This document shows positions 56,158 to 61,925 of a stretch of DNA of 64,000 nt, in pieces. The stretch comes from Allobosea sp. (GTDB lineage Bacteria > Pseudomonadota > Alphaproteobacteria > Rhizobiales > Kaistiaceae). The DNA lies in NCBI GenBank assembly GCA_017307955.1, contig JAFKFV010000009.1, positions 62,001 through 126,000 of the forward strand, read 5' to 3'. Made by a program: the position numbers and the translations under genes. The notes under the pieces are model-generated. The model made no database searches. It was not told where the DNA came from and saw nothing but the letters and a program-made list of their open reading frames with translations. Position 1 is the stretch's first letter, and each line of letters opens with the position of its first letter.

Positions 56158-56976
56158 TCAGGCTTTCGGCTTGTAGACGTTCTCTTCGCCGGGGAAGGAG
56201 CGATCGCGCACGGCCTCGGCATAGGCCGAGACCGATTCCTCGATCATGCCGGCCAGCGATCCGAAGCGCTTCACGAATTTCGGCACGCGCGGCGAGAGGC
56301 CGAGCATGTCCTCGAGCACCAGGATCTGCCCGTCGCAGGCGGGCGACGCGCCGATGCCGATCGTGGGGATCGGCACGCGCTCGGTGATGGCGCGGGCGAG
56401 CGGCTCGACGACACCCTCGACCACCATGGCGAAGGCGCCGGCGGCGGCGATCGCATCGGCATCGGCGAGCACGGCCTCGGCACTCGCCTCGCTGCGGCCC
56501 TGCACCTTGAAGCCGCCCATGGTGTTGATGGCCTGCGGCGTCAGGCCGACATGTCCCATCACCGGCACGCCGCGATCGACGAGGAAGCGCACTGTCTCCG
56601 CCATCTGGCGGCCGCCTTCCATCTTCACGGCGCCGCAGCCCGTTTCCTTCATGACACGCACCGCCGAGCGGAAGGCCGCAGCCGGGCTCTCTTCATAGGA
56701 ACCGAAGGGCAGGTCGACGACGACGAGCGCCCGCTTCGAGCCGCGCATGACCGCCTGGCCTTGCAGGATCATCATGTCGAGCGTGACGGGAATGGTCGTC
56801 TCCATCCCATGCATCACCATGCCGAGCGAATCGCCGACCAGCATGAAGTCGACAAAGGGATCGATGATCGCGGCGGTATGGGCGTGATAGGACGTCAGCG
56901 AGACGATCGGCGCCCCACCCTTCCTCGCGCGAATATCGACCGCCGTCACGCGGCGGATGGTGGCCTCGACGGACAT
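56158..56976 (-). CDS. panB: 3-methyl-2-oxobutanoate hydroxymethyltransferase
   Basis: 272 aa. Transfers a hydroxymethyl group from methylene-THF to alpha-ketoisovalerate, first step of pantothenate synthesis. [25 protein letters not shown] holds the metal-binding Asp; [17 protein letters not shown] and GHVGLTPQ are family motifs. GGGAGAG lies 8 nt before the ATG. panC is not adjacent. Confidence 0.95.
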
Positions 56977-57217
56977 CAGCGTCTCTCCCGGTGCGGCCGT
57001 GCCGCTCGTTGCCGTTTTCCTAGAGCGAATATGGCCGCGTCAGAAGCGTTTTCTCACCCTGGCGCCGGCATGGCTGCCTCAAGCAACGCGCATGGCTTGC
57101 CGTCGGTTCGCCTCGGCGAGACTTTGCCTGCTTACCAGTTGTTCAGCAGTCACGCGCATCCTTCGAGCGTCGATGTGTGCTCTCATGCGGACTTGTACTT
57201 CCATGCGCTTGCCGTCC

Positions 57218-57646
57218 ATGCCTCGCCGACTGAAGATCCTCGCCCTTCTCGCGGCGCCGTTCGTCCTCTTGCCCGGAGGAGCGGAAGCCGAGGTCGTGGC
57301 ACGCGTCAGCCTCTCCTCGCAGGCGATGGTGGTCTATGTGGACGGCGTGCCCGTCTATGACTGGGCGGTGTCGACGGCGCGACGCGGCTTCCGCACGCCG
57401 ACGGGCTCCTATCGCCCGACCCGGATGCATCGCATGTGGTATTCGAAGAAATACGACAACGCGCCGATGCCGAATTCGATCTTCTTCACCGGCGGCTATG
57501 CGGTACATGGCACCCCGCATGTGCGGGCGCTCGGCCGGCCCGCCTCTCATGGCTGCATCCGCCTTCATCCCGACAACGCGCGCACGTTCTACAGCCTTGT
57601 CAAGGATCAGGGCATGGGCAATGCGCGCATTGTGATCACACGTTGA
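57218..57646 (+). CDS. L,D-transpeptidase (YkuD), first of a tandem pair
   Basis: 142 aa with a signal peptide ending AEA. The YkuD domain fills the rest: YAVHGTP with His97 and RPASHGCIRLHPDN with the catalytic Cys113. Such enzymes make 3-3 cross-links in peptidoglycan or link lipoproteins to it. Short for the family because no LysM or PG-binding domain is attached. No clear ribosome site precedes any of several in-frame ATGs (57185, 57203, 57218); 57218 gives the best signal peptide. A paralogue follows 137 nt on. Confidence 0.88.
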   Translation: MPRRLKILALLAAPFVLLPGGAEAEVVARVSLSSQAMVVYVDGVPVYDWAVSTARRGFRTPTGSYRPTRMHRMWYSKKYDNAPMPNSIFFTGGYAVHGTPHVRALGRPASHGCIRLHPDNARTFYSLVKDQGMGNARIVITR

Positions 57647-57783
57647 GAAAATCGACGTGGCCCGGCTTTCGCTGTGACGAATGCCACTGACCGGCGCCGC
57701 CCGCTTCGCTTAAGAAGATCACCACGGCCGCCGGGGGAACGCGCGGCCATTCCCTCAACCGTCGAGCCCGACAAAGCCGCGCC

Positions 57784-58254
57784 ATGTCCGTCCGCACCGC
57801 TCTCGCCGCCCTTTCCGTTTCCGCCGCCCTCCTCGTCGCCGCCGCGGCGCCTGCCTCGGCCAATCTGCTCTTCCCGGGGCCGGCGAGCGTCTATGCCAAG
57901 GTGTCGATCTCCGATCAGCGCATGGAGGTCGTGATCAATCGCGGCAATGGCAAGAAGGAGACCTATTCCTGGAAGGTCTCGACGGGCCGAAAGGGCTTCG
58001 AGACGCCGCCGGGCAAGTTCCGCCCCGACTATATCGACGAGCTGCACCACTCGACGAAATATGAGAACGCGCCGATGCCGTTCTCCGTCTTCTTCAATGA
58101 CGGCATCGCCGTGCATGGCACCACCGAGCTGAAACGTCTCGGCTCGCCCGCCTCGCATGGCTGCGTGCGCCTCGATCCTCAGAATGCCGAGGTGTTCTTC
58201 CGCGCCGTCGCCGATATCGGCATGGAGCGCACGGCGATCATCGTCGAGAAGTAG
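57784..58254 (+). CDS. L,D-transpeptidase (YkuD), second of a tandem pair
   Basis: 156 aa. Signal peptide ending ASA, then the YkuD domain with GIAVHGTTELKRLGSPASHGCVRLDPQN and Cys127 as nucleophile. About 40% of visible core positions match the upstream paralogue in motif blocks (KYDNAPMP/KYENAPMP; RPASHGC/SPASHGC), pointing to an old duplication. Periplasmic peptidoglycan cross-linking is the expected role. Confidence 0.9.
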   Translation: MSVRTALAALSVSAALLVAAAAPASANLLFPGPASVYAKVSISDQRMEVVINRGNGKKETYSWKVSTGRKGFETPPGKFRPDYIDELHHSTKYENAPMPFSVFFNDGIAVHGTTELKRLGSPASHGCVRLDPQNAEVFFRAVADIGMERTAIIVEK

Positions 58255-58267
58255 CCGCCGCGCCGCT

Positions 58268-59350
58268 TCAGCCGCCGCCCGGCCCGCCGCCTCCGTTCTG
58301 CGAACGCCATTGCTGGATACGACTGCCAAGGCCGGAGGGGCCATCGCCGCCGGCGAAGCCGCCGGGGCCGGATGGCGGCGTTCCCTGGGGCACGGCGCCC
58401 TGACCGGGCCTCACGCCCTGCAGCCGCGCGGGCAGGTCCCCCTGCCCATCGCGCAGTGCGCGGATCGCGGCGGCGCGCTGGGCCGCCTGCCGGCTGACAT
58501 CGATGTCGACGACCGACGGACTGCCATCGTCGGGCGGGGCGGGTGAAGCGGACGTCTCGTTCACGACGATACCCGAGCCGAGCTGCAGCTGACTGCCGCG
58601 CCGCTCGACATAGGCCTCGACGGAAAGCCGTGTGACGCCCGGCCCTTCCGGCAGGCCGTCAATCGCAATTGTCTTCACCATCAGCCCACGCGGCGTCGCG
58701 CGGCCACGGACGATGACCCGCTGGCCATCGAATCGCGCGTCCGGACCGAACAGAGACACTCCGCCGATCGAGAGCAGCCAGCCGCGGTAGATTGCCGGCC
58801 CGACGACTTGGTCCATTCGGTTGCCGGCCGGTTCCACGAGGCGCGCCTCGATGACGCCGTCGAGGCGGCGGATGCCGCTGATCGCGACGCGCTCGCCGAG
58901 GACGAAGCTGCTTGTCCCTGTCGTGCCCAGATCCACGGTCTGCCCGAGCACCACCATGCGGGCGCCATCCAGCGCCGCGATCGCGCCGACGACCTCGCTG
59001 TCGATGGTGATGCGATCGGTGACGAGCCGTCCGTCCTGCGGAATGGCCACGGTCTTGACGACCTGGCCGATCATGAGATCGCGGACCGAGCGGCGACGTC
59101 CGTCGATCCGCACGTCGGCATCGGCCGGATAGGAAATACGGTCGCCATTCACATAGATGCTGCCGAAACGCTGGATCGAGCCGAGGAAGCCGATCGCGCC
59201 GCCGCCGGGCAGAGAGGTGATGCCCGTGCCGCCGATGCCCCGGTCGGAGGGCGGCGTTCCGTCCGCAAGGCCCGGCAGGATGCGCATGCCGACACCCGCG
59301 ACAAGCGCCCGCAGGAAGCCGCGCCGGCTGATCTTCACCAACCCGCTCAC
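58268..59350 (-). CDS. Tat-exported DUF5666 protein
   Basis: 360 aa. The GTG start at 59350 overlaps the DUF6502 stop as GTGA. The N-terminus has a twin-arginine signal (SRRGFLRALVAGVG). Repeated beta-rich OB-like units (ITIDSEVVGAIAALDGARMVVLGQTVDLG; VVGPAIYRGWLLSIGGVSLFGPDARFDGQRVIVRG) are DUF5666. The C-terminal ~60 residues are a Gly/Gln/Pro-rich tail. Function unknown; the folded repeats and export route suggest a periplasmic or outer-surface binding role. Co-translated with DUF6502. Confidence 0.8.
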   Translation of the reverse strand: MSGLVKISRRGFLRALVAGVGMRILPGLADGTPPSDRGIGGTGITSLPGGGAIGFLGSIQRFGSIYVNGDRISYPADADVRIDGRRRSVRDLMIGQVVKTVAIPQDGRLVTDRITIDSEVVGAIAALDGARMVVLGQTVDLGTTGTSSFVLGERVAISGIRRLDGVIEARLVEPAGNRMDQVVGPAIYRGWLLSIGGVSLFGPDARFDGQRVIVRGRATPRGLMVKTIAIDGLPEGPGVTRLSVEAYVERRGSQLQLGSGIVVNETSASPAPPDDGSPSVVDIDVSRQAAQRAAAIRALRDGQGDLPARLQGVRPGQGAVPQGTPPSGPGGFAGGDGPSGLGSRIQQWRSQNGGGGPGGG

Positions 59351-60210
59351 GCCCTGCCCTCCCTGCTTCCCGGCTCGTCGCCGTCGGTACCGCCAACCTT
59401 CTCGGCATAGACATAGACGCCGAAATTCCAGCGCCACGGTCCGGCATTGTCCTCGCCGGCCGCGGCGTGCGCCTCGCGATTGGCGGTCGTCAGCGCGTCC
59501 ATGGCGATCTCGCGCGAACGCCGCTCAAGCGTCTCGGCCACCTCGCGCGTCAGCCCGTCATAATGAACGGCGCGCTCGAGGAAGCGGGGCGTCTCGGCTT
59601 CGACATTTGCCACGGCCGCCGCGATGTGGTCGTGCAGGTTGCGCCCGAAATAATAGAGCTGCTGATCGCTGCCGCCTTTCGGCACGAAGGCCTGCTCGAC
59701 AAGCGTGATCCGATCGTCGTCATCCTGGACGACCAGTCCGCGGTCGATCCATTCATCCAGCACGACACGGGGCCGCACATCGCGGGTCACCGATTCGACG
59801 AGCTGTTCGAAGGAGGCTTCGTCGCCGCTTCCGATGCGTGGAAGCGGCCGAGGGCGGCCGGCGCCATCTCCGAAAGCGGGATCGGCCAGCCAGCGCGCGA
59901 GGATGCGGCTTGTGCGTGAGATGGAGGCCGGCACGACATTGACCGGCGCACCGGCGCCGCGCAGGCGGCTGACTTCCTTGCGATGGATGCCGGTGAGGAG
60001 GCTGACGCGGCTGTCGGTCTGGCTCTTGGTGGTCAGCGCGAAATCGTTCTCGGCAACGTTCACGTAAAGCTCGCGCAGGAGATCGACGAGGGCCGGAAAG
60101 GTCAGCCCGCTGCGAATGGCGATGCGCACCAGGGGCCTCAACAGGCGCGCGAGCGGCGCCTGCAGGCGGCCGGCGTCGAGGGCGGTGCGGTCGCGGTCGC
60201 GGTCGTTCAT
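59347..60210 (-). CDS. DUF6502 family protein, possible DNA-binding regulator
   Basis: 287 aa soluble protein. Residues 20-90 (LLRPLVRIAIRSGLTFPALVDLLRELYVNVAE, then SRVSLLTGIHRKEVSRLR) look like a winged-helix module in which the second segment would be the recognition helix region; the rest is helical with YFGRNLHDHIAAAVANVEA. DUF6502 has no established function. Coupled by GTGA to the DUF5666 exported protein. A promoter-like sequence with an internal palindrome lies about 90-115 nt upstream. Confidence 0.8.
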   Translation of the reverse strand: MNDRDRDRTALDAGRLQAPLARLLRPLVRIAIRSGLTFPALVDLLRELYVNVAENDFALTTKSQTDSRVSLLTGIHRKEVSRLRGAGAPVNVVPASISRTSRILARWLADPAFGDGAGRPRPLPRIGSGDEASFEQLVESVTRDVRPRVVLDEWIDRGLVVQDDDDRITLVEQAFVPKGGSDQQLYYFGRNLHDHIAAAVANVEAETPRFLERAVHYDGLTREVAETLERRSREIAMDALTTANREAHAAAGEDNAGPWRWNFGVYVYAEKVGGTDGDEPGSREGRA

Positions 60211-60296: not shown

Positions 60297-60325
60297 GTTC
60301 TAGCGCATGTGAAATTTTCCCACAA
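60297..60325 (-). promoter_or_regulatory. Candidate promoter of DUF6502-DUF5666 pair, spacer holds palindrome copy 1
   Basis: On the minus strand TTGTGG, exactly 17 nt, TAGAAC. The spacer carries the AT-rich copy 1 of the palindrome. Expected start of transcription near 60290, about 80 nt ahead of the DUF6502 start. The -35 is weak (3 of 6), the -10 4 of 6. Confidence 0.45.
60309..60323. promoter_or_regulatory. AT-rich palindromic operator, copy 1
   Basis: GTGAAATTTTCCCAC, same right half (AAATTTTCCCAC) as copy 2 49 nt downstream but lacking two G on the left, so a less perfect dyad. AT-rich in a GC-rich genome and inside a promoter spacer. Confidence 0.55.
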
Positions 60326-60350
60326 TGGCGTGATCGCATCGACCGGACGA

Positions 60351-60379
60351 TTGACGTGGGAAATTTTCCCACTTACTAG
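60351..60379 (+). promoter_or_regulatory. Candidate promoter of glycosyltransferase, spacer holds palindrome copy 2
   Basis: TTGACG (5 of 6), exactly 17 nt, TACTAG (3 of 6). The palindrome GTGGGAAATTTTCCCAC fills the spacer, touching the -35. Expected start of transcription near 60386. Confidence 0.5.
60356..60372. promoter_or_regulatory. AT-rich palindromic operator, copy 2
   Basis: GTGGGAAATTTTCCCAC, perfect 8-bp arms around one central base. Lies between the -35 and -10 of the glycosyltransferase promoter, where a bound protein would exclude RNA polymerase. No known operator with this sequence is recognised by me. Confidence 0.65.
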
Positions 60380-60437: not shown

Positions 60438-61925
60438 TTGAGCAAGCTCTACATCGACGCCACGGTGCCCCTGCGCTGGGGACCTCACCCGCCGGTCGGC
60501 ATTCCGCGCGTCGAGAGCGCGATCGTCCGGCAGGCGCTGCGCAGCATCGGAACCGGGCGCAATGCGCGGCAGGTCCGCTTCTTCATGATCAACCGCAACG
60601 GCGAGGCGCGCTTCCTCGACCGGCGCGAACTGACCTATCTCGGCGACCTCGTCGAGGGGCGTGCCGCCGCCGTCGAATCGGGCGCCGGCGAGAGCGTGCT
60701 CTCGCGGACGCGGCTGGTGCTGAAGTCGATCCGCGCCGGCGCAGCGACGACCGGCAAGGAGTTCGACCGCGTCTCAGCCTCCTACATCTCCGGCCGCAAC
60801 GACCGTCGCGGGTTCGGCTACCAAGCCGCGAAGACGTTCATCCGCGCGGCGAAGCTCGTCGCCGGCCGCAGGGCGCCGGTCTTCGCCAAGCCCGGCCCCG
60901 ATCCGCTGCTCGATGCCGACGCCGCATGCTTTCTCTCGACGGCGGGCCTGCATGCGCTGGCAAGCAACGGGCGCGGCAGCGGCATCGCGGCTCGGCTCGC
61001 GACCATCCTTCATGACCTCATTCCCCTCGACCATCCTTCGCTGGTCGACCGCAGCCATGCCCGCAACTTCGAAAAGGATGTCGCCTGGATGTTCCGCCAC
61101 TGCGAGCGGATCATCACCGTCTCCGCGCACACTGCCGAGACTGCGCGGCGCTATGCCGAGGAGAACGGCGTCGAGGCGCCGCCCTCGGTCGCCGTGTCGC
61201 GGCTCGGCTCGTTCCTGAAGGAGGGGTTGCGCCACAAGCCACTCGAGCCGGTCGCCGCGCTCGCCGGGCGCCGCTTCGCGCTCTATTGCTCGACCATCGA
61301 GATCCGCAAGAACCACATCCTGCTGCTCAAGGTGTGGTCACGGCTCATTCCGATCCTCGGCGAGCGGCTGCCAAAGCTCGTCTTGTGCGGCCGCTGGGGC
61401 TGGATGACCGACGAGGTTGAAGCCTTTCTGGCGGAACATCGCGAACTCGCCAGCCATCTCGTCGTGCTCTCGGATATGAGCGACGCGGAGCTCGGCTGGC
61501 TCTATGCCCATGCCGATTTCGGGCTCTACCCCTCCCGCGCCGAGGGCTGGGGTCTCGGCGCCGTCGAATGCCTCGATTTCGGCCTGCCGGTCCTCATCTC
61601 CGAAACGCCATCGCTGTCCGAGGCGACGCAGGGTCTGATGCCGATCACCGGCATGGACGACGAGGACGGATGGACGGCACTGGTGCTCCGCGCGGTCGAG
61701 GACCCGCGCTTCCTGCAAGAGCTGACGGCCCGCATCGCGACCGGCTATCTGCCGGTCAGCGAAACCCGCTTCAGCAGCCGCGTGCTGTCGCTGGTCGCCG
61801 GCGAGGCGGCGGATCGCGCCGTCCTTCCTGCTGTGCCGAAGGCTTTGCTGCCGCGGCTCACGCCCTGGCGCCCGGCGCGACGGACGGAAACTTCGCCCGG
61901 CATGGAGACCCTGGCTGGAACCTGA
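60438..61925 (+). CDS. Glycosyltransferase family 1 (GT-B fold)
   Basis: About 495 aa. The C-terminal half has the GT1 pattern: FALYCSTIEIRKNHILLLKVW and DFGLYPSRAEGWGLGAVECLDFGLPVLIS with the E-x7-E donor-binding motif. The N-terminal half begins SKLYIDATVPLRWGPHPPVGIPRVE, like other rhizobial polysaccharide transferases. I chose the TTG at 60438 because GGAG precedes it by 8 nt and it gives a family-like start; the ATG at 60399 would add 13 residues without a ribosome site. Acceptor and sugar unknown. The gene stands alone, divergent from DUF6502. Confidence 0.87.
   Translation: MSKLYIDATVPLRWGPHPPVGIPRVESAIVRQALRSIGTGRNARQVRFFMINRNGEARFLDRRELTYLGDLVEGRAAAVESGAGESVLSRTRLVLKSIRAGAATTGKEFDRVSASYISGRNDRRGFGYQAAKTFIRAAKLVAGRRAPVFAKPGPDPLLDADAACFLSTAGLHALASNGRGSGIAARLATILHDLIPLDHPSLVDRSHARNFEKDVAWMFRHCERIITVSAHTAETARRYAEENGVEAPPSVAVSRLGSFLKEGLRHKPLEPVAALAGRRFALYCSTIEIRKNHILLLKVWSRLIPILGERLPKLVLCGRWGWMTDEVEAFLAEHRELASHLVVLSDMSDAELGWLYAHADFGLYPSRAEGWGLGAVECLDFGLPVLISETPSLSEATQGLMPITGMDDEDGWTALVLRAVEDPRFLQELTARIATGYLPVSETRFSSRVLSLVAGEAADRAVLPAVPKALLPRLTPWRPARRTETSPGMETLAGT

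Follow-up and report, generated by a model that had tools for sequence, protein, structure and literature searches.

What reads the two copies of a palindrome that lie between the divergent genes for a GT4-type glycosyltransferase and a DUF6502-DUF5666 protein pair, and to what effect? The question is raised by a 64,000-nucleotide stretch of bacterial DNA (GenBank assembly GCA_017307955.1, contig JAFKFV010000009.1, positions 62,001 to 126,000; hereafter the window), in which each copy is embedded in a promoter-like sequence. We conclude that the palindromes are very probably operators of DUF6502 itself, which would act as autorepressor of the DUF6502-DUF5666 operon and as repressor of the divergent genes, which appear to be concerned with the envelope and surface polysaccharides. 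Computation showed that the operator is conserved, that it sits within promoter-like sequence, that it co-occurs and covaries with DUF6502, and that a helix-turn-helix (HTH) is predicted in that protein; from this we infer that DUF6502 binds as a dimer, that it represses and does not activate, and that its targets share a surface-glycan theme. DUF6502 is thus most likely a new family of autorepressor acting through this operator, and the operator is the finding reported here. The elements concerned are as follows.

60356..60372, no strand: operator copy 2, GTGGGAAATTTTCCCAC, inside the spacer of the glycosyltransferase promoter-like element
60307..60323, no strand: operator copy 1, ATGTGAAATTTTCCCAC, inside the spacer of the DUF6502 promoter-like element
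60351..60379, plus strand: promoter-like TTGACG-17-TACTAG towards the glycosyltransferase, read from the sequence and recurring at other DUF6502 loci
60297..60325, minus strand: promoter-like TTGTGG-17-TAGAAC towards DUF6502, read from the sequence, with counterparts in genomes G019, G023 and G025
59347..60210, minus strand: DUF6502 protein, 287 amino acids, proposed repressor (Pfam PF20112, E 2e-38)

An earlier note on this DNA described two opposed promoter-like sequences with 17-nucleotide spacers, each holding a copy of the palindrome, and re-reading of the sequence bears this out. The plus-strand element comprises TTGACG (60351-60356), its spacer (60357-60373) and TACTAG (60374-60379), and the minus-strand element TTGTGG (60325-60320), its spacer (60319-60303) and TAGAAC (60302-60297). 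The palindrome is 17 bp long with the consensus GTGGGA-N5-TCCCAC, and the two copies differ at 2 of 17 bases; copy 2, which the note called perfect, is a perfect dyad in its arms, with the exception of the central base. Copy 2 shares the last base of TTGACG and the GTGGG arm of copy 1 overlaps TTGTGG, so that the operators, placed by the note in the spacers, do fill these but also touch the -35 elements. Allowing up to 3 mismatches, the window holds the palindrome exactly twice, where shuffled sequence would give 0.03 occurrences, and a pattern search of the whole 4.8-Mb genome found one further place only (C24:322246-322262, equivalent to L002:1501-1517).

This arrangement is conserved well beyond the window. 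We collected 80 DUF6502 loci of other Hyphomicrobiales, among them Methylobacterium, Microvirga, Bradyrhizobium, Bosea and Lichenibacterium, and at 80/80 a site with at least 12/14 arm matches lies upstream of DUF6502 and no more than 350 bp from its start, mostly in 2-3 copies; about 1.3% of background windows match as well, several of these being further likely sites in the same loci. The earlier note held that absence of the palindrome from orthologous loci keeping the DUF6502-DUF5666 pair would tell against it; the outcome was the opposite, as these 80 loci show. The half-site spacing is equally constant, TGGG-Nk-CCCA being found with k=7 at 78/80 loci and with any other k from 2 to 15 at 0-1 loci, and TGGG-N7-CCCA recurs at 20/35 loci of a more distant DUF6502 set.

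Among genomes of the same genus, taken to be Kaistia, all seven that encode DUF6502 have the operator twice in the intergenic stretch upstream of that gene; G016 is one of them, although no glycosyltransferase was found there. Conversely, no operator was found at the glycosyltransferase locus in any of the seven Kaistia genomes that have the glycosyltransferase without DUF6502. In a four-species Kaistia alignment the copy 2 side holds an invariant block, TTGACGTGGGAAA-TTTCCCAC-TA, with ATTGACGTGGGAAA-n-TTTCCCAC-n-TA conserved against a diverged background, and on the copy 1 side TGTGA-n-A-nn-TTCCCACAAT is conserved against the same kind of background. The promoter-like element directed towards DUF6502 takes the form TTGTGG-17-TATAGG/TATAGA in G019, G023 and G025.

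The position of the operator bears on its effect. At 70/80 loci TTGAC directly precedes one copy, in the direction away from DUF6502, and this copy is nearly always followed by nTA, giving TTGACG-17-TA. The other copy often has a TTG core: 70 loci carry GTGGGATTGnnTCCCAC, and TA follows 16-18 nucleotides past this TTG in 68/70, compared to 2.6% of background. On this geometry the spacer of the divergent promoter would be taken up by one operator, and the -35 element of DUF6502's own promoter would fall inside the other; overlap of operators with core promoter elements points to repression by occlusion. DUF6502 might instead bind the operator as an activator, or switch between activation and repression; we think this unlikely. 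The case for repression is one of geometry, and activators of the MerR type do work from within long spacers, but MerR promoters have spacers of 19-20 nucleotides where those seen here are of the normal 17, and both geometries, including the -35 element inside the second copy at 68/70 loci, favour occlusion. In a separate observation on the DUF6502 promoter, the predicted -10 element lies only about 10-20 nucleotides before the start codon at several loci of Methylobacterium and relatives (L039-L060), which suggests leaderless DUF6502 transcripts there.

The link between operator and DUF6502, taken here as the repressor, was examined across the order in 397 genomes, of which 36 match PF20112 and 361 do not. 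Perfect GTGGGA-N5-TCCCAC sites occur in 23/36 of the former and 24/361 of the latter (Fisher p ~1e-15), and their central bases are 86% A+T in DUF6502-positive genomes compared to 44% in DUF6502-negative ones. One genome scored as negative by Pfam, G063, has operators at a contig end (L228, G063:C418) followed by a cut-off reading frame, MAEPVIMQRPGEPPPALLRA, in which the residues PGEPPPALLRA resemble the PGEPHPAL N-termini of other DUF6502 proteins; read in this way, G063 is a prediction that held. Furthermore, among DUF6502 relatives from elsewhere in Pseudomonadota the operator changes symmetrically along with the predicted recognition helix. Helices with HRK pair with (G/A/T)TGGG-N7-CCCA, QRK with ATGGG-N7-CCCAT (L162, L164), TRK with [AT]TGGG-N8-CCCAA (L229-L231), and QRR or TRR with ATGTG-N7-CACAT (L240 and L239).

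Were the palindrome bound by a regulator encoded elsewhere, with DUF6502 merely one of its targets, DUF6502 members without an operator would be readily accommodated, and such members exist. The rarity of the motif in genomes without DUF6502 and its symmetrical shift in step with the DUF6502 recognition helix make this very unlikely. DUF5666, which alone among the neighbouring genes accompanies DUF6502 at most loci, was rejected as the binder because it lacks an HTH match and because the operator is kept at loci in which DUF5666 was not found (L096, L106, L162, L164, L240, L242, L243 and L245). That the palindrome arose by chance, or belongs to a repeat family or other conserved element without regulatory role, can be virtually dismissed by the shuffle, spacer-spectrum and co-occurrence tests, for although some perfect motifs occur in DUF6502-negative genomes, 0.03 sites are expected in the window, sites are few per genome, the spacer spectrum peaks at 7, and the element keeps a fixed place within promoter-like sequence across genera. 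The earlier proposal of one regulator for both sides, perhaps DUF6502, is supported by the 80/80 loci, the covariation and the absence of the operator at Kaistia glycosyltransferase loci lacking DUF6502.

Several observations weigh against DUF6502 autorepression. A generic sigma-70 consensus scan calls no promoter at the window elements, and the case for promoters there is made by conservation and not by how a single sequence scores. The 80 loci, retrieved using the peptides RELYVNVA and LTGIHRKE, are close relatives, not independent cases; the Pfam-based searches are the less biased test. The perfect motifs in the 24 DUF6502-negative genomes mostly have GC-rich cores, as expected if they are mostly chance sites, with which the 44% A+T figure fits. 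The TRR and QRR pairings come from a single lineage each, so that the residue-to-base link rests on few events, and in HRR members the GTG change is not seen on both sides. Finally, no recognisable operator was found at the DUF6502 members L136, L156, L237, L238, L244, L254 and L255, and the rule is therefore not valid for the whole family.

The protein itself is a clear family member, matching PF20112 with 132 bits against a curated cut-off of 27, and this is its only convincing family match. An AlphaFold2 (AF2) model built from a 66-sequence alignment (pLDDT, the predicted local distance difference test, 81) replaced one built from 7 near-identical sequences (pLDDT 47). In it, the covarying residues 76-78 fall within an HTH made up of helices 66-73 and 77-83, and helices 134-141 and 147-157 with strands 160-170 form a second, winged-helix-like domain. 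The predicted HTH (residues 66-83) supports DNA binding. The earlier note had expected an N-terminal winged helix: a DNA-binding domain is indeed predicted, but the N-terminal one is an HTH and the winged-helix-like part follows at 134-170. Pfam records no function for PF20112, NCBIfam has no name for the DUF6502 or the DUF5666 protein, and no PDB chain matches DUF6502 by sequence. In the open literature, which covers few subscription journals, we found no paper on DUF6502 or on the operator letters, in keeping with the note's view that the operator is undescribed; in the four open papers mentioning DUF5666 the name is absent from title and abstract.

Classical autoregulated HTH repressors of the TetR, MarR and LexA type have in common with this system divergent promoters whose -35/-10 region holds a palindromic operator, a regulator gene adjoining the operator and a small regulon. 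DUF6502 differs in that it matches none of these families by sequence and is modelled as an HTH followed by the second winged-helix-like domain. A Foldseek search of the PDB gave no strong match to the model, MarR/SlyA folds matching weakly (E 0.2-1); in a structural alignment SlyA scored Z 5.0. HetR, the heterocyst regulator of cyanobacteria, was not among strong Foldseek matches, and came near the top of the structural alignment four times as a loose, nearly full-length match (Z 6.1-6.4 over 203-217 residues, root-mean-square deviation ~11 Å), at a level, Z below 8, that can reflect a common arrangement only. HetR binds a 17-bp palindrome with G-triplet half-sites, its Lys73 contacting the G triplet (PMC4649674), and its site is GGG-N5-CCC (PMC4192349, PMC4649674). 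The DUF6502 operator is spaced GGG-N7-CCC, and DUF6502 Lys78 sits, by eye, at a place similar to that of Lys73. The HetR flap and hood have been described as novel folds, a point of difference from DUF6502, and hhalign of DUF6502 with two HetR sequences (3qod, 4hri) returned a probability of 0.1%, that is, no sequence-profile similarity. A reading in which DUF6502 would be structurally a remote relative of HetR from outside Cyanobacteria, having kept recognition of a G-triplet palindrome through Lys78, as the equivalent of HetR Lys73, and changed the half-site spacing, is very unlikely, and HetR is a lead only.

In the mechanism we propose for DUF6502 autorepression, a DUF6502 dimer would bind GTGGGA-N5-TCCCAC via its N-terminal HTH. 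Once bound, it would keep RNA polymerase from the divergent promoter, whose -35/-10 spacer is occupied by the operator, and likewise from its own promoter, where the operator overlaps or contains the -35 element. Its targets would be the DUF6502-DUF5666 operon, the glycosyltransferase here and a small membrane protein elsewhere in the genome, and DUF5666, which is exported by eye-based prediction, is a candidate for a role in sensing. As a mechanism, promoter occlusion by an autorepressor is ordinary; what is new is the family and its operator. This provides a proposed, testable function for a DUF family that occurs not only in the order of the window but also in further orders of the same class and in further classes of Pseudomonadota, and the residue-to-base covariation offers a means of predicting operator specificity. 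An anonymous but conserved DUF6502-DUF5666 operon thereby becomes a putative regulator with a short list of targets resembling envelope or glycan genes, in genera that include Methylobacterium, Bradyrhizobium and Microvirga, for whose association with plants surface polysaccharides are important.

Two genes flank these elements as proposed targets.

58268..59437, minus strand: DUF5666 protein, probably sharing an operon with DUF6502 (PF18914 at E 1e-4, under the curated cut-off)
60438..61925, plus strand: GT4-type glycosyltransferase, TTG start with GGAG 7 nucleotides upstream, proposed repressed target (PF00534)

The DUF5666 gene lies on the same strand as DUF6502 at 78/80 loci and is the only partner conserved beside it; its actual start probably lies in the internal MVKISRRGFLRALVAG region, with a Tat-like (twin-arginine translocation) signal by eye. 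The glycosyltransferase start was set from homologues beginning MSKFYFDATQPLRWG. Our picture of the regulon comes solely from pattern searches. The divergent or distant genes behind operators vary, and many look envelope- or glycan-related: the GT4 glycosyltransferase in the window, a GT4-ABC2 protein in Bradyrhizobium, an outer-membrane protein (OMP) beta-barrel at Methylobacterium loci, an acyltransferase-3 in Lichenibacterium, and HlyD-type, histidine-kinase, GDSL lipase and DUF6894 genes. Lichenibacterium minor (G038; L201, L204), with two DUF6502 genes, has 11 perfect operators, the most among the genomes searched.

The third operator of the genome, on C24, has TTGAC directly before it and lies 68 bp upstream of a gene for a single-pass membrane protein of about 100 amino acids, which contains the segment RRFRPRLAAGF...DGLRSFDR. 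A protein search found relatives in G019, G015, G025 and G023, each lying behind that genome's second operator at less than 300 bp and sharing RRFxPxLAxGF...DGLxxFDR; outside these four Kaistia genomes matches were weak (G013 and G005) and both interrupted by stops. In G015 (L260, G015:C2:527818-527973) the RRFxPxLAxGF segment is fused to a multi-pass membrane protein of about 600 amino acids that has no Pfam match and is, by eye, possibly a membrane glycosyltransferase. Within the window, two adjoining plus-strand genes at 56957-58254, ending just downstream of the DUF5666 gene, have HGT...SHGCIRL-type motifs and are, by eye, likely L,D-transpeptidases (YkuD).
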